6,694 bases of DNA from Cellulomonas sp. (lineage in GTDB: Bacteria > Actinomycetota > Actinomycetes > Actinomycetales > Cellulomonadaceae). A model generated the notes under the pieces. The model did no database searches, was not told the DNA's origin, and saw nothing but the letters and a program-made list of their open reading frames with translations. A program made the position numbers and the translations under genes. The stretch is from NCBI GenBank assembly GCA_027451305.1, contig DAIDJQ010000177.1, forward strand, positions 1 through 6,694. Reading direction: 5' to 3'. Shown one piece after another: positions 107 through 6,694 of this stretch; positions within the stretch are counted from its first letter, which is position 1, and each line of letters starts with the position of its first letter.

Positions 107-913
107 GTGGGGTCGCATCGCGACAAGCCCGCCTCGCCTCGTCGTGCGCGCGCAGCGCGCGTCCCCGAGGCGCACGCGGCACCCCGCCGGCGCCACGGCG
201 CCCGCCTGGCGGGGCGCATCGGCATCCTCGCGGCCCTCACCGGCATCACCGTGGTGCTCCCCGTCTCGCAGTCCGCGCTCGCGGCGGCCGGGGTCCCGCT
301 CGCGTTCGCGACGCACGTGGCCCTACCCTCGACGCTCGACGCGCTGACCTCGGTGCCGCCCTCGCAGCAGACGCCCGCCTCGCTCCTGGCCATGCCCGGC
401 GCACGGACGGCGCTCGACGTGTCGAGCGCGCAGCGGGTGTCTCGCTCGGTCGAGCGCAGCCCCCTGCCGGGGTGCGACGGCATCGCGCGCCCCGAGGGCA
501 AGAACGGGCTGGTTCCGGCCGCCGATCTGTGCACGCTCTTCGACGGCCACACGCAGATGCGCGCCGACGCCGCCGTCGCGCTCGCAAACCTCAACGAGGC
601 CTACGTCGCGAAGTTCGGCTCGGACATGTGCCTCGAGTCGGGCTACCGCACGCTCGCACAGCAGTACGCGGTCAAGGCCGAGCGGGGCAACCTCGCCGCG
701 GTCCCCGGCACGAGCAACCACGGCTGGGGCCTGGCGGTCGACTTCTGCTCGCGCGAGACCTCCGGTGCGCGGTGGGCCTGGCTCAAGGAGAACGGACCGC
801 TCTACGGCTTCCAGAACCCGCCCTGGGCGCAGATCGGCGGCGGTGGCCCCCACGAGCCCTGGCACTGGGAGTTCGTCAAGGGCGTCCAGGCCAACGGCGC
901 CTGGTTGGGCTGA
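107..913 (+). CDS. M15 family (VanY-type) D-alanyl-D-alanine carboxypeptidase, membrane-anchored or secreted
   Basis: This 268-residue zinc peptidase of the M15B/VanY family is expected to act outside the membrane on D-Ala-D-Ala ends of peptidoglycan stem peptides. The GTG start at 107 is preceded by GGAGG (98-102). The N-terminal 38 residues are rich in Arg and basic, followed by a hydrophobic stretch (about 39-61) that is either a signal peptide ending near SALAA or a membrane anchor. A low-complexity linker leads to the catalytic domain at about 120-268. Visible motifs are SGYR (178-181), S-x-H-x2-G-x-A-x-D with zinc ligands H205 and D212, and EPWHWEF with the probable catalytic E250 and zinc ligand H253. 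The key residues are therefore all present. Four cysteines (123, 142, 175, 214) could form disulfides, which fits an exported domain. It may be housekeeping wall trimming rather than glycopeptide resistance, since no vanHAX-like genes are nearby. It ends directly against the convergent epimerase gene. Confidence 0.9.
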   Translation: MGSHRDKPASPRRARAARVPEAHAAPRRRHGARLAGRIGILAALTGITVVLPVSQSALAAAGVPLAFATHVALPSTLDALTSVPPSQQTPASLLAMPGARTALDVSSAQRVSRSVERSPLPGCDGIARPEGKNGLVPAADLCTLFDGHTQMRADAAVALANLNEAYVAKFGSDMCLESGYRTLAQQYAVKAERGNLAAVPGTSNHGWGLAVDFCSRETSGARWAWLKENGPLYGFQNPPWAQIGGGGPHEPWHWEFVKGVQANGAWLG

Positions 914-1822
914 TCAGCGCAGCTGCAGTCCCCAGGTGAGCGTGTGCGACGCGCCCGGGGCGAGCTCCACCAGGTCGTCACCGGTGCGGAACGCGTCCGC
1001 GACGCACGTCATGGGCTCGGCCGCCACCGCGGTGCGCCGGATGGCCTCGACCTCGTCGCCCGTGCAGACCTGCCACGCGCGCGCCGCGCCGTCGGCCCAC
1101 ATCGCCACCGTGGTGCCGTCCGGGCGGCCCAGGAGCAGCCAGGACAGGCCGTCGGCGTCACGGACCAGGTCGGTCCAGGCGTCGTCGTACGCGTGGCCCG
1201 CGAGGGCGACCGGCGTGCGCAGGTCGAAGCCGTTGGTCACCGGCTCGGTGCCGGTGGGCAGCAGGCGGTTGTCGACGGTGACGTGGCGTGCGGCGTCGAC
1301 GCGCAGCGTGCAGGCGTCGAGCTCGGCCCCGGCGGTGGACAGCCACGGGTGGACGCCCGCGCCGTAGGGCGCGGTCGACGTGCCGCCGTTGGTCGCGGTG
1401 ATCGTCGCGCGCAGGCCGGACTCGCCGAGCGAGAAGGCGGCGACGAGCCGCAGCGGCCACGGGTACCCCGTGGTGGGGACGATGGTGTGCGTGAGCTCGA
1501 TCGACGTGCCGTCGTCGGACACGCCGGCGGTCTCCCAGCGCACGTGCGTGACGAGCCCGTGCAGCGCCGTCATGCGCGCCGGCTCGCTCACCGGCACCTG
1601 GTGCACCGTGCCGCCGTACTCGTACAGGCCGTTGGCCAGCCGGTTCGGCCACGGCGCGAGGACCATGCCGGAGAACGCGGGGGCCAGCTCGGCCTCGTCG
1701 TACGGCCGGACGACGTCCGCCCCGCCGACGCGGTAGGACCGGAGCGAGGCGCCGACCTCCGTGATCACGGCCTCCTGGCCGCCGGAGCGCAGGACGTACT
1801 GGCTGCCACTGGGGAGAGTCAC
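914..1822 (-). CDS. Aldose 1-epimerase family protein (GalM/YihR-like mutarotase)
   Basis: This cytosolic sugar mutarotase-fold protein is predicted to interconvert alpha and beta anomers of an aldose or a sugar derivative. The exact sugar cannot be told from the sequence. Counting from the GTG at 1861 (315 residues), family landmarks are APWPNR (69-74), LHG with H101, GVHPW with the probable general acid H171, a D226/D227 pair, and A-E-P-M-T with E282 as the probable catalytic base, followed by the DAF motif and a C-terminal TWGL strand. I prefer the internal GTG at 1822 (302 residues). The family-like sequence begins there (TLPSGSQY), the 13 extra residues are basic and unlike the family, and a TANNNT box lies 8 nt upstream of that GTG. 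Neither start has a clear ribosome-binding site. The stop codon (914-916) abuts the stop of the convergent carboxypeptidase gene. The gene is divergent from the CpaF-type gene. Confidence 0.88.
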   Translation of the reverse strand: MTLPSGSQYVLRSGGQEAVITEVGASLRSYRVGGADVVRPYDEAELAPAFSGMVLAPWPNRLANGLYEYGGTVHQVPVSEPARMTALHGLVTHVRWETAGVSDDGTSIELTHTIVPTTGYPWPLRLVAAFSLGESGLRATITATNGGTSTAPYGAGVHPWLSTAGAELDACTLRVDAARHVTVDNRLLPTGTEPVTNGFDLRTPVALAGHAYDDAWTDLVRDADGLSWLLLGRPDGTTVAMWADGAARAWQVCTGDEVEAIRRTAVAAEPMTCVADAFRTGDDLVELAPGASHTLTWGLQLR

Positions 1823-1830
1823 AAGCCGAC

Positions 1831-1836
1831 ACCGTA
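1831..1836 (-). promoter_or_regulatory. Putative -10 box for a leaderless epimerase transcript
   Basis: On the minus strand the hexamer reads TACGGT (TANNNT) and is followed by 8 nt and then the GTG at 1822. Transcription would then begin at or next to the start codon. No convincing -35 box is visible. The hexamer is observed. Leaderless initiation is inferred from spacing and from the absence of a ribosome-binding site. Confidence 0.3.
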
Positions 1837-1878
1837 CCTGGACGTGTGACCGCTTCCGCACACCGGGGGTCCCGGGCG

Positions 1879-1908
1879 GTCACCCGATCGGGTGCGCAGC
1901 CGGGTGAC
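1879..1908. promoter_or_regulatory. Operator-like palindrome in the divergent intergenic region
   Basis: A perfect 14-bp palindrome, CACCCGATCGGGTG, occupies 1881-1894. Overlapping it, GTCACCCG (1879-1886) forms a second perfect 8-bp inverted repeat with CGGGTGAC (1901-1908). CGGGTG recurs at 1889, 1901 and 1921. The site sits between the divergent epimerase and CpaF-type genes, about 45 bp behind the putative epimerase -10 box. This is where a dimeric repressor or activator would be expected. The binding protein is unknown, and a cruciform or chance GC-rich symmetry remains possible. Confidence 0.4.
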
Positions 1909-2021
1909 GCGTGCGTGGCCCGGGTGAATCCGGTGGAGGACGAACCACGCGTTCCGTGCGAATGCCCTACCGTCCGGCCCATCGGGCTGCGGTGGCAGAC
2001 GACAGACCGAGGGGTGGGGGC

Positions 2022-2759
2022 ATGTCCTGGGACGGGGCGGCCCTCGTCGAGCGTGAGGTGCGCGAGCTCATCCGCCGGCGGGGGCTGGATCCGGCGCGCG
2101 ACCCCGACGGGGTGCGGGCGCTGGTGTCGGCGGCGATCGCCGACTACGACGAGCGGTCGGTGCTGGGCGCCGTACCGCCGCTCGACGACGCCGCGGCGGT
2201 GCACAAGCAGGTGGTCGACGCGGTCGCCGGGCTCGGGCCGCTGCAGCGGTACCTCGACGACGAGACCGTCGAGGAGATCTGGATCAACTCGCCGTCCCAG
2301 GTGTTCGTGGCCCGCGGCGGCGTCGCCGAGCTCACCACGACGATCCTGTCCGAGACGCAGGTGCGCGACCTCGTGGAGCAGATGCTCAAGACCACCGGCC
2401 GGCGCCTGGACATGTCGAGCCCGTTCGTCGACGCGCAGCTGCCGGGGGGCGAGCGGCTGCACGTGGTCATCCCGGACGTGACCCGGCGCTGGGCCGTCAA
2501 CATCCGCAAGCACGTGGTGCGCGCCACCAGCCTGGACGACCTCGTGGTGCTCGGGTCGATGCCGCCGCAGGCCGCCGCCTTCCTCGCCGCCGCCGTACGG
2601 GCCGGCCTCAACGTGCTCGTGTCGGGCGCCACCCAGGCCGGGAAGACCACGGCGCTCAACGCGATGGCGGGCGCGATCCCGGCGCGCGAGCGCGTCATCA
2701 GCTGCGAGGAGGTGTTCGAGCTCAGGAAGGCGGCCCTGGTGCATACTTGCCGATCGTGA
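2022..2759 (+). CDS. cpaF: CpaF/TadA-type secretion ATPase, 5' fragment interrupted by the integrated element
   Basis: This is the N-terminal part of a type II/IV secretion (Tad pilus type) hexameric ATPase, which powers pilus assembly or secretion from the cytoplasmic side. The ATG at 2022 has GAGGGG at 2009-2014 with 7 nt spacing and opens with MSWDG. The N-terminal domain includes LGPL (71-74), EEIWINSP (84-91) and FVDAQLPGGERLH (135-147). Walker A is GATQAGKT (202-209), and the acidic strand RVISCEEVFEL (224-234) follows. After R235 the family sequence stops. The last ten residues (KAALVHTCRS) are unlike the family and end at a TGA overlapping the integrase start. Only 245 residues remain, while family members are roughly 400 or more. 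Walker B and the His box needed for ATP hydrolysis are absent, so this copy is almost certainly inactive. The AGG and AAG codons near the break also look unlike the host gene. It was broken by integration of the downstream element. The missing half is not in this window. Confidence 0.85.
   Translation: MSWDGAALVEREVRELIRRRGLDPARDPDGVRALVSAAIADYDERSVLGAVPPLDDAAAVHKQVVDAVAGLGPLQRYLDDETVEEIWINSPSQVFVARGGVAELTTTILSETQVRDLVEQMLKTTGRRLDMSSPFVDAQLPGGERLHVVIPDVTRRWAVNIRKHVVRATSLDDLVVLGSMPPQAAAFLAAAVRAGLNVLVSGATQAGKTTALNAMAGAIPARERVISCEEVFELRKAALVHTCRS
2700..2756. other. Probable attL (hybrid attachment site)
   Basis: The CpaF-like coding sequence continues to about the CTC codon at 2721-2723 or the AGG at 2724-2726, and non-family sequence starts right after. 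Serine integrases recombine sites of about 40-50 bp at a 2-bp core, so the core should lie near 2720-2730. The left half of the site (attB-derived) would be ATPase-coding sequence and the right half (attP-derived) would reach into the integrase start. The exact core cannot be fixed without an uninterrupted homologue or the attR sequence. Confidence 0.5.
2742..2747 (+). promoter_or_regulatory. Putative -10 box of the integrase gene
   Basis: CATACT resembles the TATAAT consensus and is followed by 8 nt and the GTG at 2756. A leaderless integrase transcript would fit, since no ribosome-binding site stands at a useful distance (AGGAAGG at 2724-2730 is 25 nt away). Any -35 box would fall at the attB-derived side of the junction. 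No recognisable -35 is seen. Confidence 0.3.
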
Positions 2760-4138
2760 GGGCGACGCGGAGACCAGAGGCGGTCATCTACGTGCGGCTC
2801 TCGTTCGACCGACGCGGCGATGAACTCGGTGTCGAGCGTCAGGAGGCCGAGTGCCGGGCGCTCGCGGAGCGCCTCGGGTTGACGGTGAGCAAGGTCTATC
2901 GGGACAACGACGTCTCCGCAACGACCGGGAAGCTCCGCCCAGGTTTCGAGGCGCTGCTGCGGGACCGGCCCGCGGTGGTGATCTGCTGGCATCAGGACCG
3001 GCTGCTCCGGATCTCGAAGGACCTGGAACGGGTGCTCGACGCAGGGTTCACGGTGTACCAGGCGACCGCAGAGAAGACGCCTCTCGACTTGGCCACGCCT
3101 ACGGGTCGCGCGGTTGCTCGAACGATCACCGCCTGGGCGACCTATGAGGGTGAGCACAAGGCGGAACGTCAGCGGGCAGCGAACCGTCAGCGCGCAGCGA
3201 TGGGGCTTCCGCCGGCCGGCGGGCCGCGGTTGTTCGGTTTTGAGAAGGATGGGATCACGCACCACCAGGTGGAGGCGCCGCTCGTCCGGAAGGCCGCAGA
3301 GGGGCTGCTGGCGGGGTCGTCGGTGCGCTCGCTGGCGCGGGCCTGGAATGAGGCTGGCTGCGTCACCTGGCGGGGGAATCCCTGGGACGCGTCCTCGGTG
3401 CGCCGTGTTCTGCAGAACCCGCGCATCGCAGGCCTCGCGAGGTACGACCACGCTGAGCTCCCGGGAGTGTCGACGGTCTGGGAGCCGATCGTCGACGAAG
3501 CCATGTGGCGGGCTGTCCAGGCGATCCTGGCCGACCCACGGAGGCGCAGGGTATGGGACCAGCATGCCCGCTATCTGCTGACCAGCATCGCGCTGTGCGG
3601 GCGCTGCCAAAGTGACGGCATCCTGGCCACGGTGGGGACCGCGCACACCCAGCACAAGGTGCGCATCTACAAGTGCGCCGAGAGGGCCGACCTGGCGAGG
3701 AAGGCCGCCGACATCGACGCGTTCGTCACTGAGGCGGTGCTCAGCCGGCTCGAGCATCCGGGCTTCGCTGCTGCCCTGGGCGGTGGGGGATCAGCGGACG
3801 AAGAGCCGGACTACGCGGCAGAGGCGGCAGGGATCAGAACCAGCCTCGATGAGCTGGCGACCGCGTTCGGGAGCGGCGCGATCAGCCTCACGCAGCTGAC
3901 GACAGCTTCAGCGGTCCTCAACGAGCGGCTCGAGGCCGCGGAAGCGGCCATGAAGGGGCGCGCTGGCGACGTTCTCGGCGCTTTCGTGGGACGGGACCCC
4001 CACGAGGTGTGGCGAAGCCTAGAGCTGGTGCAGAAGCGGGCTGTCGTGCGTGCGGTGACCGCCAGGGTCGTTCTGTTGCCACCGAAGATGGGCCGACAAC
4101 GACTCGACCCAGACAGCATCGTCATCGACTGGCGATAG
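2756..4138 (+). CDS. Large serine recombinase (site-specific integrase)
   Basis: This cytoplasmic DNA recombinase is predicted to catalyse attP x attB integration, and excision with a directionality factor. It is 460 residues from the GTG at 2756. An in-frame TTG at 2747 would add three residues, and the numbering below includes them. The N-terminal catalytic domain starts YVRLS with R17 and nucleophile S19, then ERQ (30-32), and W-H-Q-D-R-L-x-R (81-88). The recombinase domain opens near GPRLFGF (159-165), with VLQNPRIAG (221-229) and WEPIVDEAMW (245-254). A zinc ribbon follows with C284-x2-C287 and C310, but the position where HLSR-type relatives carry the fourth ligand appears to be D315. 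A helical, probably coiled-coil segment spans about 356-402. The length is typical of the family. The start overlaps the stop of the truncated ATPase as GTGA (2756-2759), so translational coupling is possible. Some stretches use more A/T at third positions than the host genes, consistent with foreign origin. It looks intact, though activity is unproven. Confidence 0.93.
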   Translation: MRATRRPEAVIYVRLSFDRRGDELGVERQEAECRALAERLGLTVSKVYRDNDVSATTGKLRPGFEALLRDRPAVVICWHQDRLLRISKDLERVLDAGFTVYQATAEKTPLDLATPTGRAVARTITAWATYEGEHKAERQRAANRQRAAMGLPPAGGPRLFGFEKDGITHHQVEAPLVRKAAEGLLAGSSVRSLARAWNEAGCVTWRGNPWDASSVRRVLQNPRIAGLARYDHAELPGVSTVWEPIVDEAMWRAVQAILADPRRRRVWDQHARYLLTSIALCGRCQSDGILATVGTAHTQHKVRIYKCAERADLARKAADIDAFVTEAVLSRLEHPGFAAALGGGGSADEEPDYAAEAAGIRTSLDELATAFGSGAISLTQLTTASAVLNERLEAAEAAMKGRAGDVLGAFVGRDPHEVWRSLELVQKRAVVRAVTARVVLLPPKMGRQRLDPDSIVIDWR

Positions 4139-4328
4139 CGGCTCGGACCGCTGCCACAACGTCCGGGTCCGGGGCAGGTGCTGAGCGGCCGCGGGCGCGA
4201 GCCTGGGCCAGGACATCAGCAGTCAGCACCGTCTCGCCCACCGGTGGCCGCTGTGTCGGGATGGTGAGCAGGCGCGGTGCTGTCCGCTGTCGCGGCGTTA
4301 GGGACTGTCGCAAAGCCCTCGCGGGCAT
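4122..4328 (-). CDS. Possible small protein of 68 residues, unknown function
   Basis: I do not recognise this reading frame. It has an ATG at 4328 preceded on the minus strand by GGAGAG (4337-4342) with 8 nt spacing, which is one of the better ribosome-binding sites in the window. The predicted protein is basic, with many Arg and Pro residues in its first half and an Ala-rich, probably helical C-terminus (VVAAVRAAIASR). No membrane helix or known motif is visible. Its 3' end overlaps the convergent integrase gene by 17 bp. Third positions are only moderately GC-rich, weaker than in clear genes here. It could be a real small gene or an antisense artefact of GC-rich DNA. Confidence 0.2.
   Translation of the reverse strand: MPARALRQSLTPRQRTAPRLLTIPTQRPPVGETVLTADVLAQARARGRSAPAPDPDVVAAVRAAIASR
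4137..4152 (+). terminator. Small hairpin at the integrase stop codon
   Basis: AGCGG (4137-4141) and CCGCT (4148-4152) form a 5-bp stem with a 6-nt loop that starts within the integrase TAG stop. There is no T-run after it, so it is at best a weak or Rho-assisted terminator. It may be chance in such GC-rich DNA. Confidence 0.2.
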
Positions 4329-4478
4329 GATTGTCGCTCTCCGGCCGAGGAACCGGCGGGTGTGTGTCTCGACGGACTCCACGATACCGATGCGTCTATA
4401 CGGGGACCTCCAGAGGCAGGCAAGACGTCGGGCCGCAGTCAAGGAACGACGACCTCACGCCGAAGCAACCTCGTGACG
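4139..4478. other. Stretch without a convincing gene between integrase and membrane protein
   Basis: Beyond the hairpin at the integrase stop and the doubtful 68-residue minus-strand frame, no gene is supported here. The stretch contains a 10-bp palindrome CCACCGGTGG (4238-4247) and a -10-like TATACG (4397-4402) that could serve the downstream membrane-protein gene, but no matching -35 box was found. The plus-strand frames across it read as Arg-rich low-quality protein. A longer start for the membrane protein at GTG 4362 was considered less likely. Confidence 0.4.
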
Positions 4479-4904
4479 ATGACGACCCTGCTGCCGGTGA
4501 TTGCATCCCTGCTGGCAGCTGGCCTCGGCGCCCTGGGGAGTGCCGGATGGACAGCCGACGCCCGACTGCTTCGACGGGCAGATCAAGCCCTCCAGTTGGC
4601 GGCGAAGACCCAGCGGCGGGACCTGCGGGTCAAGCTCCGGGACGCCGCACATGCAGACATCGAGGAGGCCCTGAAACGTCGCGGCGCGCTGCGCCCACTA
4701 CTCGCGGTGGGCAGTGCGTCTATCGGAGCGACGCTCGCCGCGGTGTGGCTTATCCCGTGGTGGATCACTCAGCACCCCCAACAGGCCGCCGGATGGCTCG
4801 GCACCGTCTGGCTCGTGCTTCTCGCGTCCTACGGTCTCGGCGCGATCGTCGGCTGGGCCATGCTCGCAACGATGTGGATGGCCCGACACTCAGCCCTCAA
4901 GTAG
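4479..4904 (+). CDS. Hypothetical small membrane protein with three predicted helices
   Basis: This 141-residue protein is not recognised as a named family. Helix 1 lies at about residues 3-22, followed by a charged, probably helical cytoplasmic segment (28-72) with many Arg/Lys and Glu/Asp residues. Helix 2 is at about 73-96 and includes WLIPWW (90-95), and helix 3 at about 107-133. The positive-inside rule puts the charged segment in the cytoplasm and the N-terminus outside. The start is uncertain: ATG 4479 is where the membrane protein begins, GTG 4473 lies two codons upstream, and neither has a strong ribosome-binding site. An in-frame GTG at 4362 would add 39 low-quality residues. The gene is 340 bp downstream of the integrase in the same orientation and is therefore probable element cargo. 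A role as a phage-type holin, exclusion or immunity protein can be imagined but nothing in the sequence shows it. Confidence 0.55.
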   Translation: MTTLLPVIASLLAAGLGALGSAGWTADARLLRRADQALQLAAKTQRRDLRVKLRDAAHADIEEALKRRGALRPLLAVGSASIGATLAAVWLIPWWITQHPQQAAGWLGTVWLVLLASYGLGAIVGWAMLATMWMARHSALK

Positions 4905-4987
4905 AGCGAGCGAGGTCCACGGCCTCGGCCCGGGCCCGGCGTCCGCACCAACGCCAACCTGTATGCGGTGCTCCACTCCGACAAGCC

Positions 4988-5018
4988 CCAGGCTCGGGCG
5001 GCCGCGTGTTGAGCCTGG
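4988..5018. terminator. Inverted repeat, possible bidirectional terminator
   Basis: CCAGGCTC (4988-4995) and GAGCCTGG (5011-5018) form a perfect 8-bp stem around a 15-nt loop that itself contains the palindrome GCGGCCGC. It sits 84 bp past the membrane-protein stop on the plus strand and 4 bp past the stop of the doubtful minus-strand frame at 5022. There is no T-run on either side, so a Rho-independent terminator of classic form is not shown. A protein-binding site is another possibility. Confidence 0.35.
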
Positions 5019-5021
5019 CTA

Positions 5022-5237
5022 TCAACCGCGGATCAAGACAGGACCGGGGGTCGGCGGCCAGCCGTCGGCGCCGGGCACCACCGCGGTGCTCATCCGGCTG
5101 GCATATCCGCGCGGGAGAGCCCTGGTCGTGGCGACCTGGGCCCGCCACACACCGGCGAGGTCGGTGATCAGCCTGGCTGGCGGGCGGGCGCGAGCATCTC
5201 CACCGTGCACGTCCTCCGCTGTGCAAGGTCTGGACAC
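5022..5237 (-). CDS. Possible small or remnant coding frame, 71 residues, unknown
   Basis: I do not recognise this frame. From about residue 23 (LITDLAGVW) to its end, third positions are almost all G or C and the translation looks protein-like. The first 20 residues are poorer and the GTG at 5237 has no ribosome-binding site. It may be the tail of a decayed gene. An 8-bp-stem inverted repeat lies just past its stop. Against it, the plus-strand frame over the same bases shares the same third positions, so the codon signal is ambiguous as to strand. Confidence 0.2.
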   Translation of the reverse strand: MSRPCTAEDVHGGDARARPPARLITDLAGVWRAQVATTRALPRGYASRMSTAVVPGADGWPPTPGPVLIRG

Positions 5238-5357
5238 GCGCTCTGAACCCGGCGCATGTGCACCCTAGGCATCTCTCACCTGCACGGATAGTCCTACGTC
5301 CATACGCGGGCCCTCGGGGTGCGACCTCCTGCGGCGTGCGCGCGCCGGCGTTTGCGG

Positions 5358-5386
5358 TTCTCTACAGTCTCTACGGTTCTTCACGG
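5358..5386 (+). repeat. Short direct repeats of a CTCTACRG-like motif
   Basis: Three adjacent units read TTCTCTACAG (5358-5367), TCTCTACGG (5368-5376) and TTCTTCACGG (5377-5386). The phasing of about 9-10 bp, close to one helical turn, lies about 80-110 bp before the HNH start. This could be a regulator-binding cluster. The first two units also contain TANNNT boxes (TACAGT at 5363-5368 and TACGGT at 5372-5377). Function is unknown. Confidence 0.3.
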
Positions 5387-5452
5387 CCCCCGCGGTTGTC
5401 GCTGCACCGCTTGTTGGTCGCTGAACTGGCACACAGCGGGTTCATAGCCGCG

Positions 5453-5458
5453 TACCTT
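5453..5458 (+). promoter_or_regulatory. Putative -10 box for a leaderless HNH gene transcript
   Basis: TACCTT (TANNNT) is followed by 6 nt and the ATG at 5465. No Shine-Dalgarno sequence precedes that ATG, so a leaderless transcript is plausible. A clear -35 box is not seen at 16-18 nt upstream. Confidence 0.3.
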
Positions 5459-5464
5459 CGAGCC

Positions 5465-6532
5465 ATGTCTGGCATGGGGGCGGGGCAGCCGGGTGGGGGC
5501 GTCGGGCGACGGGGTGGTCCCCGCAGGTGGCGAACCTCGCAGGTCGTGGGGCTGTCCGCCTTCGTCGTGGTGGCCCTGCTGGGGTTGACCAGCGGGCTGG
5601 GCGGGGTGCTGATCTGCGGTGGCCTGTACCTGATGGGTACGGGCTTGTATGCGGTGGCGCGGCATCGGTCGTGGCTGGGCAGCCTGAGCCGGACCACGGC
5701 GGTCGGTGTGCTGGCTGGTGGGCTGGTGGTGATGATGGTCGGCGGCGCGGTCGCCGGCACTCCACCCAGCAAGCCCGTCACGGCTACTGCCCCGTCGGCC
5801 ACGGCGAGCTCGAGCGGCACGCCGCGGCCGTCGACGTCCCCGCCGGCCACACCCACGCCGACGCCGACGCCGACCGCGGCGAGCTTGGCGGATCAGGCCG
5901 CTGCGTTGCCGGCACCGGAGCTGGCGCCGCAGGTCGACGTCGCCGCCGCCGGCACCAACGCCGCTCCGCAGTCGGCACTGGCCACGGCGCTGCTGCTGCA
6001 GGTGAAGGGACGAGCTCCCAAGACCGGGTACAGCCGGGACCAGTTCGGCCCGGCGTGGCAGGACACCGACGGCAACGGCTGCGACCAGCGCAACGACGTG
6101 CTGGCCCGGGACCTGACCGCGATCACCCTGGAGGCTGGTTCGTGCGAGGTGCTGACCGGCACCCTGGCTGATCCGTACAGCGGCACGACGATCGCGTTCG
6201 TGCGCGGCGTAGAGACGTCCAGTGCGGTGCAGATCGACCACGTCGTGGCCCTGTCCGACGCCTGGCAGAAGGGCGCCCAGCAGTGGGACGCCGCCACGCG
6301 CGTGAAGTTCGCCAACGACCTGGTCAACCTGCTCGCGGTGGACGGGCCGTTGAACGTGCAGAAGGGCGACGGCGACGCGGCGACCTGGCTGCCGCCGCAG
6401 CGTGGCTACCGGTGCGTGTACGTGCTGCGGCAGGTGCGCGTGAAGGCGGCGTACGGGCTCTGGGTCACTGCCGCCGAGCGTGACGCGATGGGTCGGGAGC
6501 TCAACCGCTGCGTGGTCGCACCTGGGCACTGA
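5465..6532 (+). CDS. Membrane-anchored HNH endonuclease family protein (DUF1524/GmrSD C-terminal type domain)
   Basis: This 355-residue protein joins a membrane module to a nuclease-like domain. Residues 1-24 are Gly/Arg-rich. Predicted helices are at about 26-44, 45-64 and 78-97, with a basic loop (R66, R68, R76) between helices 2 and 3. The positive-inside rule then places everything after residue 98 outside the cell. Residues 99-139 form a Pro/Thr/Ser linker ending in alternating Thr-Pro. The C-terminal domain (about 175-355) has GRAPKTGYSRDQFG (182-195), the HNH core IDHVVALSDAW with D258 and H259, N284 and N288, and LNVQKGD (296-302). Four domain cysteines (206, 227, 317, 349) could form disulfides, in keeping with an external location. 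Homologous secreted actinobacterial HNH proteins are known, but their substrates are mostly uncharacterised. Outward-facing DNA degradation for nutrition, competition or DNA-uptake control is inference. The start ATG 5465 was chosen because the coding character begins there, and upstream in-frame residues from 5258 look non-coding. The gene may be cargo of the integrated element. Confidence 0.85.
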   Translation: MSGMGAGQPGGGVGRRGGPRRWRTSQVVGLSAFVVVALLGLTSGLGGVLICGGLYLMGTGLYAVARHRSWLGSLSRTTAVGVLAGGLVVMMVGGAVAGTPPSKPVTATAPSATASSSGTPRPSTSPPATPTPTPTPTAASLADQAAALPAPELAPQVDVAAAGTNAAPQSALATALLLQVKGRAPKTGYSRDQFGPAWQDTDGNGCDQRNDVLARDLTAITLEAGSCEVLTGTLADPYSGTTIAFVRGVETSSAVQIDHVVALSDAWQKGAQQWDAATRVKFANDLVNLLAVDGPLNVQKGDGDAATWLPPQRGYRCVYVLRQVRVKAAYGLWVTAAERDAMGRELNRCVVAPGH

Positions 6533-6537
6533 CGGGC

Positions 6538-6694
6538 GGACGGGACAGGGACAAGTGCCACCGTCGGACGTGGGTCACCGCCCGTGCAGGGGACGGGACA
6601 GGGACCGGCGCCACCGTCGGACGTGGGTCGCCGCCCGTGCAGCGGACGGCGCCGCCGCCGGACGGGGGCACCGCCCGGCCACCGTCACGGTGCG
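6538..6694 (+). repeat. Tandem array of 53-bp GC-rich units, running off the window
   Basis: Unit 1 (6538-6590) and unit 2 (6591-6643) both begin GGACGGGACAGGGAC and match at 48 of 53 positions by direct comparison. A third, shorter and diverged unit begins at 6644 with GGACGG and shares the GGACG and CACCGCCCG blocks. The array starts 6 bp after the HNH stop codon. At the unit 1-2 border CCCGT (6581-6585) pairs with ACGGG (6593-6597) as a small hairpin, so the array may also attenuate or end transcription. Units are contiguous with no spacers, which rules out a CRISPR array. Confidence 0.65.

Follow-up and report, generated by a model that had tools for sequence, protein, structure and literature searches.

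The contig analysed here passes from an actinobacterial chromosome into foreign DNA. In the window, by which we mean the whole 6,694-nt stretch of DNA, the host side is made up of genes for a VanY-like D-Ala-D-Ala carboxypeptidase, an aldose 1-epimerase and the pilus ATPase CpaF, and these are followed by a large serine integrase gene and two cargo open reading frames (ORFs; Table 1). Among the genomes compared at the DNA level, the nearest relative with an uninterrupted cpaF (G187) is 83% identical to the window over bases 1-913 and 87% over bases 914-2722, and its epimerase gene adjoins cpaF as well. Downstream of cpaF in G187 lie genes for two T2SSF proteins (tadB and tadC) and one TadE protein, and because of these the locus is assigned to a Tad/Flp pilus operon. 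Synteny with G187 supports an insertion inside the cpaF gene of this operon.

Table 1. Features of the window, with coordinates and the evidence for each.
Feature	Position	Strand	Basis
VanY-like D-Ala-D-Ala carboxypeptidase gene, host flank	107..913	+	Pfam PF02557, 4.7e-13
Aldose 1-epimerase gene, host flank	914..1861	-	Pfam PF01263, 5.1e-41; synteny with G187
5' part of cpaF/tadA pilus-ATPase gene, residues 1-234, Walker A kept	2022..2722	+	Pfam T2SSE, 2.5e-17; 88-91% identical to P0123-P0126; 87% DNA identity to G187
Probable 2-bp crossover core CT in the Leu234 codon (CTC)	2721..2722	+	Inferred from end of similarity at 2722, CTG core of G103 and attP dyad on CT
Element arm of attL, supplying RKAALVHTCRS and a stop to cpaF	2723..2759	+	Unlike uninterrupted relatives; P0122 tail related
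Large serine integrase gene; alternative TTG start at 2747	2756..4138	+	Pfam PF00239, 1.2e-20, and PF07508, 9e-17; PHROG 95, 9.8e-82
Cargo ORF, 180 aa, C-terminal half hydrophobic by eye	4362..4904	+	ORF call
Cargo ORF, C-terminal GmrSD_C domain, N-terminal hydrophobic stretch; start maybe at about 5465	5258..6532	+	Pfam PF07510, 4.1e-20, for 5465-6529

A cpaF gene cut at the Leu234 codon

No stop interrupts the cpaF reading frame (2022-2759) between its ATG and the stretch CEEVFEL; the gene retains Walker A (GATQAGKTT, residues 202-210) and lacks Walker B and the C-terminal half. Four uninterrupted relatives (P0123-P0126), each of 409 aa and 88-91% identical to the window protein, read FELRLxARDWVAM here; the window protein reads FEL, then 11 foreign residues (RKAALVHTCRS) and a stop. 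The DNA alignment with G187 ends at base 2722, inside the Leu234 codon and between Walker A and Walker B. As it runs from 914 to 2722 and then stops, we place the break at about 2722/2723. Alignment to uninterrupted relatives, by which the original prediction had proposed to fix the breakpoint, thus puts it at the Leu234 codon, four bases from the position (about 2726) at which the prediction had an otherwise intact ATPase frame, with Walker A and the acidic strand, turn into unrelated residues. The alignments, the domains and a second genome (G103, below) give good support to its central claim, the insertion of an element with a serine integrase between the Walker A and Walker B parts of cpaF. 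The element arm holds the hexamer CATACT (2742-2747), which from consensus we take to be a possible -10 element; a promoter scan of window positions 1800-5500 found no sigma-70-type promoter.

A tblastn search found no 3' piece of cpaF within the 6,694-nt window. The contig stops before the right junction of the element, and the 3' half would lie past the contig end. By eye, a GC-rich unit (ACGGGACAGGGAC...CACCGTCGGACGTGGGTC) occurs twice in similar form within the last 150 bases (6541-6694), and because of these copies the assembly may have stopped there. A window that ends before the right junction leaves room for an assembly chimera, a deletion or a naturally short CpaF, and the original prediction had named relatives ending at the same point as a sign of this. 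One relative shows this in part: P0122, which is 96% identical to the window cpaF product, also ends at 245 aa, at the same residue, with a related but different tail (RKAGRVHTCPP). However, P0122 is encoded on another contig, the relatives at 88-91% identity have no such truncation, and an element flanked by both cpaF halves is present in G103, so that an artefact or a short natural form is very improbable. In view of the full-length relatives and of G103, which keeps both halves of a cpaF split at this very codon, we read P0122 as an apparent second insertion by a similar element.

The integrase gene looks intact and encodes Resolvase and Recombinase domains (Pfam), with a match to PHROG 95, annotated as 'integrase'. 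Its start is probably GTG at 2756 or TTG at 2747, 24-33 bp past the break, in agreement with the predicted distance of less than 35 bp; the GTG overlaps the stop of the broken cpaF (GTGA). In an alignment of 12 proteins (the window integrase and 11 relatives), Y15, R17, S19, C284, C287 and C310 are invariant, and S19 is presumably the catalytic serine. The zinc ribbon model PF13408 does not match the window integrase, though the three cysteines are invariant; it does match the integrase of G103. Models for XisF and CcrB match the window integrase far under their cut-offs. The large serine integrases of the actinophages phiC31, Bxb1 and R4 have the same domain order and the same short-core logic, and differ in target gene.

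The complete arrangement is seen in G103 (locus L082), where cpaF residues 4-239 match before, and residues 234-405 after, a 7.7-kb element. Its integrase, 41% identical to that of the window, begins just inside the left junction. The trinucleotide CTG is common to the left and right junctions, at the very codon where the window cpaF is cut, and a join at this shared 3-bp core restores the cpaF frame. In the rebuilt attP of G103 the best dyad is centred on CT, with 12 paired positions versus 10 for the next best. The crossover core in the window is therefore probably the CT of the Leu234 codon. For G140, the inferred core and the best attP dyad are 3 bp apart; G001, G006 and G063 were not used in the dyad comparison. 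G359, read on one side and kept outside the counts below, breaks at the Leu234 codon too. Besides its integrase, the G103 element (1747-9459) encodes an HK97-type capsid protein and a tape-measure/endolysin-like protein, and it resembles a satellite or a small element with its own capsid gene.

The window would then hold the left end (attL) of an element that recombined within the Leu234 codon, with CT as the probable short core. The cut would remove Walker B and the C-terminal half of the ATPase, and would separate the start of a cpaF-tadB-tadC-pilin operon from the genes downstream. With cpaF truncated and the operon start cut off in this manner, no Flp/Tad pilus should be active for as long as the element stays integrated.

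Split cpaF genes across related genomes

The window is one of many cases. A census covered 200 genomes of Cellulomonadaceae, with a cpaF orthologue in about 170 by our reading of the matches (30 genomes without), and cpaF is split in 15 of them (G001, G115, G091, G023, G065, G119, G166, G140, G203, G103, G137, G144, G099, G063 and G102). The halves lie on one contig in 13 and on two contigs in G119 and G166. Two splits are not clean: G137 has a decayed 5' half and a transposase-type rve ORF inside, and G065 has an extra partial 3' copy of cpaF at a contig start, 62 kb apart from the copy followed by tadC, which lies by the other contig end. An order-level sample of 297 genomes added at least 11 splits (G396, G463, G461, G322, G329, G260, G427, G471, G462, G344 and G253), a lower bound as the 30 intermediate scorers were those followed; ten are on one contig and that of G253 is on two. 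Two more came by other routes, from Schumannella soli (G006) and from a virus record (G014) that also carries a portal protein and whose integrase is of the tyrosine type. Nine assemblies with a broken, odd or one-sided cpaF (G164, G076, G118, G457, G421, G299, G310, G326 and G359) were excluded from the insertion count. A serine integrase ORF lies in the fetched element ends of 14 of the 15 splits in Cellulomonadaceae, G137 being the one in whose ends none was found, and of 10 of the 11 at the order level (all except G461).

The word common to both junctions varies from 0-2 bp up to 10, 11, 15 and 16 bp. When the halves were joined and no shared core was required, 14 of 17 pairs gave a near full-length open frame (at least 398 reference residues); G014 and G065 were limited by the sequence ends, and G137 failed. 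All 11 pairs whose junctions had to share a core of 2 bp or more could be joined as well, with 365 to 405 reference residues aligned and 1 to 8 gap positions. Since an open frame was the condition for choosing each join, these figures show only that restoration is possible: exact excision could restore cpaF in the relatives.

The original prediction likened the locus to active lysogeny, a type of gene control in which excision restores a host gene. On that reading the element would be a switch under regulation, leaving cpaF at set times so that the pilus comes on to the benefit of the host. Such excision is known from comK. In both SP-beta in spsM (PMC4191935) and skin in sigK (PMC5025042), going by the available text of these papers, an element interrupts a host gene whose restoration would follow from exact excision, as here, and regulated excision is demonstrated for both, whereas the present case is known from sequence. 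The part of the prediction that concerns rejoinable frames stands, with both halves kept in the relatives. The window integrase also lies just downstream of the broken cpaF on the same strand, and since its GTG overlaps the cpaF stop, expression of cpaF could feed that of the integrase. Regulated excision is thus possible in form. However, the sequences revealed no excisionase, inducing condition or excised form, and the integrase faces the other way at five loci (L072, L076, L077, L079 and L081). Values of pN/pS do not separate the split halves from the nearest intact genes, with no clear relaxation in a measure dominated by the time before insertion. A switch kept for the host is hence a distinctly improbable explanation.

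Break points in cpaF cluster near residues 90, 131-143, 153, 205-208, 234 and 297, and coincide with conserved motifs, at least six in number, among them WINxPT, GRRLDLS, VIPDVT, GATQAGK, EEVFEL and GVPGM. From the integrase trees it is evident that different integrase lineages target cpaF; as mostly integrases picked for lying in cpaF were included, the trees show convergence, not preference. Both observations would be expected if cpaF were a landing site of convenience, a dispensable gene with strongly conserved GC-rich motifs whose loss brings no gain. Our controls for target preference are weak. The aldose epimerase gene, which is matched in 192 of the 200 genomes, gave no complete control with another conserved gene: all of the matches listed are near full length, but these are the best-scoring ones, among which halves would not show, and the 21 genomes with a best E above 1e-80 lie outside the follow-up. 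CpaF paralogues, on the other hand, are split in 1 case (G210) and contiguous in 75, versus 15 splits in about 170 orthologues (Fisher p 0.026, counted by hand), a fragile difference since the count omits seven short fragments and the weakest GspE-like rows, and counting the fragments as splits would erase it. This difference, and the insertions into tadC, a pilin-like gene and comEC described below, lead us to regard pure convenience as unlikely, if still the most serious competitor to the reading that we prefer, in which loss of DNA uptake favours the target.

Individual loci show the range of these insertions. In G203 (L081), cpaF is interrupted in its Walker A codons by a 5.2-kb element (1593-6810) that encodes a serine integrase and a rolling-circle-type replication protein (REP_ORF2-G2P), a pairing that makes it unlike an ordinary tailed phage. 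At the VIPDVT site, the cpaF halves are about 7 kb apart in G322 (L144) and about 105 kb apart in G260 (L154/L155), the latter perhaps with more than one element between them. The split paralogue in G210 (L157/L156), about 40% identical to the query, is cut near residue 300, with its parts about 40 kb apart and a serine integrase at one junction.

Integration targets beyond cpaF

A one-per-species genome collection was scanned with an integrase alignment chosen by sequence alone, which gave 18 loci. Ten of these lie in cpaF (2: L001 and L011), tadC (5), a Flp-like pilin gene (2) or comEC (1). The cpaF insertion L001/L072 belongs to the type strain of Cellulomonas chitinilytica. The tadC gene is cut near residue 281, with both parts in view in L004, L008 and L012 and one part in L005 and L013; in L013 another ORF lies between the tadC break and the integrase. 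The small pilin-like gene of the tad operon is cut in L014 and in L016, the closest of the 18 to the window in integrase sequence (65% over residues 10-146). The intact 62-aa form of this gene has no pilin match in Pfam or NCBIfam, and from its position and sequence features we take it to be a probable Flp pilin. L015 cuts comEC, recognised by its Competence and Lactamase_B domains, with a score of 155 bits for the NCBIfam ComEC/Rec2 model (cut-off 190). When three Agrococcus loci are counted once, 8 of 16 lie in pilus or uptake genes, which has a probability of about 1e-15 under a uniform-target model, into which neither relatedness nor a preference of integrases for conserved coding motifs enters. 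Among 52 relatives on viral contigs, three (L049, L053 and L067) adjoin a CpaF-like fragment, 39-43% identical, that starts at Walker A.

The remaining eight of the 18 lie elsewhere: by an AMP-binding enzyme (L003 and L007), an amidohydrolase (L002), a DNA glycosylase neighbour (L010) and, for four, without an identified target. L003 and L007 are related integrases in two Streptomyces genomes that adjoin fragments of AMP-binding enzyme genes, the kind of gene that the R4 integrase targets.

In the Cellulomonadaceae, tadC was matched in 177 of the 200 genomes, of which 14 were followed, and is split in five: on one contig in G150, G107 and G135, and across two contigs in G160 and G123. The element in tadC of G150 has no recognised integrase. 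The comEC gene was matched in 187 of the 200, with 10 followed, and is split in two. The element in G078 is 17.5 kb long with a serine integrase 15 bp from its right junction; no integrase was recognised in the 9.4-kb element of G074. Four further genomes (G065, G181, G201 and G210) gave two comEC matches each, which proved to be adjacent pieces, hence no insertion. Altogether cpaF, tadC or comEC is split in 22 of the 200 genomes, none counted twice and doubtful ones included.

Phage genes in some of the elements (the capsid and tape-measure/endolysin-like genes of G103, the portal protein of G014) would agree with superinfection exclusion, in which the pilus is a phage receptor and the resident element gains by its removal. 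However, comEC, which is not known to be part of the pilus, is targeted too. Because of comEC, even with few cases (L015, G078 and G074), we favour a block to DNA uptake over the loss of a phage receptor, which we consider improbable.

A possible block to DNA uptake, and the cargo genes

The insertion itself is real; its function we infer. The wider pattern of targets (cpaF, tadC, a Flp-like pilin gene and comEC) points to the blocking of Flp-pilus-dependent DNA uptake, a reading that the original prediction did not contain. The Flp pilus and ComEC may together form the DNA-uptake machine of these actinobacteria, and an element that disables uptake would escape removal by transformation with element-free DNA. 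Our best explanation is that an integrative element entered cpaF by means of its own large serine integrase, that it disables DNA uptake through the Flp pilus, and that the target is favoured because an element that switches off uptake cannot be removed by natural transformation. We give this reading a probability of roughly 0.54. The block would in principle be reversible, as excision could restore the gene exactly.

The link to transformation comes from Micrococcus luteus, where transformation was lost when a tad ORF was deleted, one ORF being the exception, with polar effects not excluded (Angelov et al., 2015, PMC4322843). In that system the operon is of the same type as in G187 (cpaF, tadB, tadC and a TadE gene) and the phylum is the same; no mobile element is described in the accessible part of the paper, and for the host of the window, as for Cellulomonas in general, natural transformability would be a prediction. 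Among the systems considered, M. luteus is the only one in which the available text shows tad genes to be needed for DNA uptake, and these genes serve adhesion too (PMC4322843).

Mobile elements in comYC, comK, comFA, comM and comEC are an established case in other phyla, as set out in the portion of Croucher et al. (2016, PMC4774983) available to us. The elements described there resemble ours in that they insert into coding sequences of DNA-uptake or competence genes, at conserved sites, with divergent integrases converging on one gene. They differ from ours in the genes hit, which here comprise comEC, a pilin-like gene, tadC and, cut at six or more motifs, the ATPase gene of an actinobacterial Tad/Flp pilus, and in the integrases, which here are mostly large serine integrases. 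A search of the open-access literature found no report of integration into actinobacterial cpaF or tad genes.

A broader claim would be that elements of several kinds (phages, small capsid-bearing elements and one with a rolling-circle replicon) have repeatedly evolved integrases for different conserved motifs of Flp-pilus and ComEC genes, cpaF above all, leaving the host reversibly non-transformable and the element safe from curing. We hold this more tentatively, at somewhat less than an even chance. If true, the sabotage of natural transformation by mobile DNA would extend to a phylum with little-studied competence, and cpaF would be the gene most often targeted among the three counted. A split cpaF, tadC or comEC would then be a genomic sign of actinobacteria that may use Flp pili for DNA uptake. 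The recurrent hits suggest that mobile DNA may be disarming a system able to remove it. The serine integrases, with their different landing sites within a single gene, are useful for comparing target choice.

About 4 kb of the element is in view in the window, and in a PHROG scan of its three ORFs the integrase alone was matched. The 180-aa cargo ORF has no match in Pfam, PHROG or NCBIfam. The second cargo protein (5258-6532) combines an N-terminal hydrophobic stretch, a Thr/Pro-rich linker and a GmrSD_C domain, which we take to be of the HNH type, an architecture that would suit a nuclease exported to the surface or secreted. Degradation of DNA outside the cell, if this is its role, would fit a block to uptake. 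In a plasmid collection, four records match the window, all of them within this cargo nuclease region.
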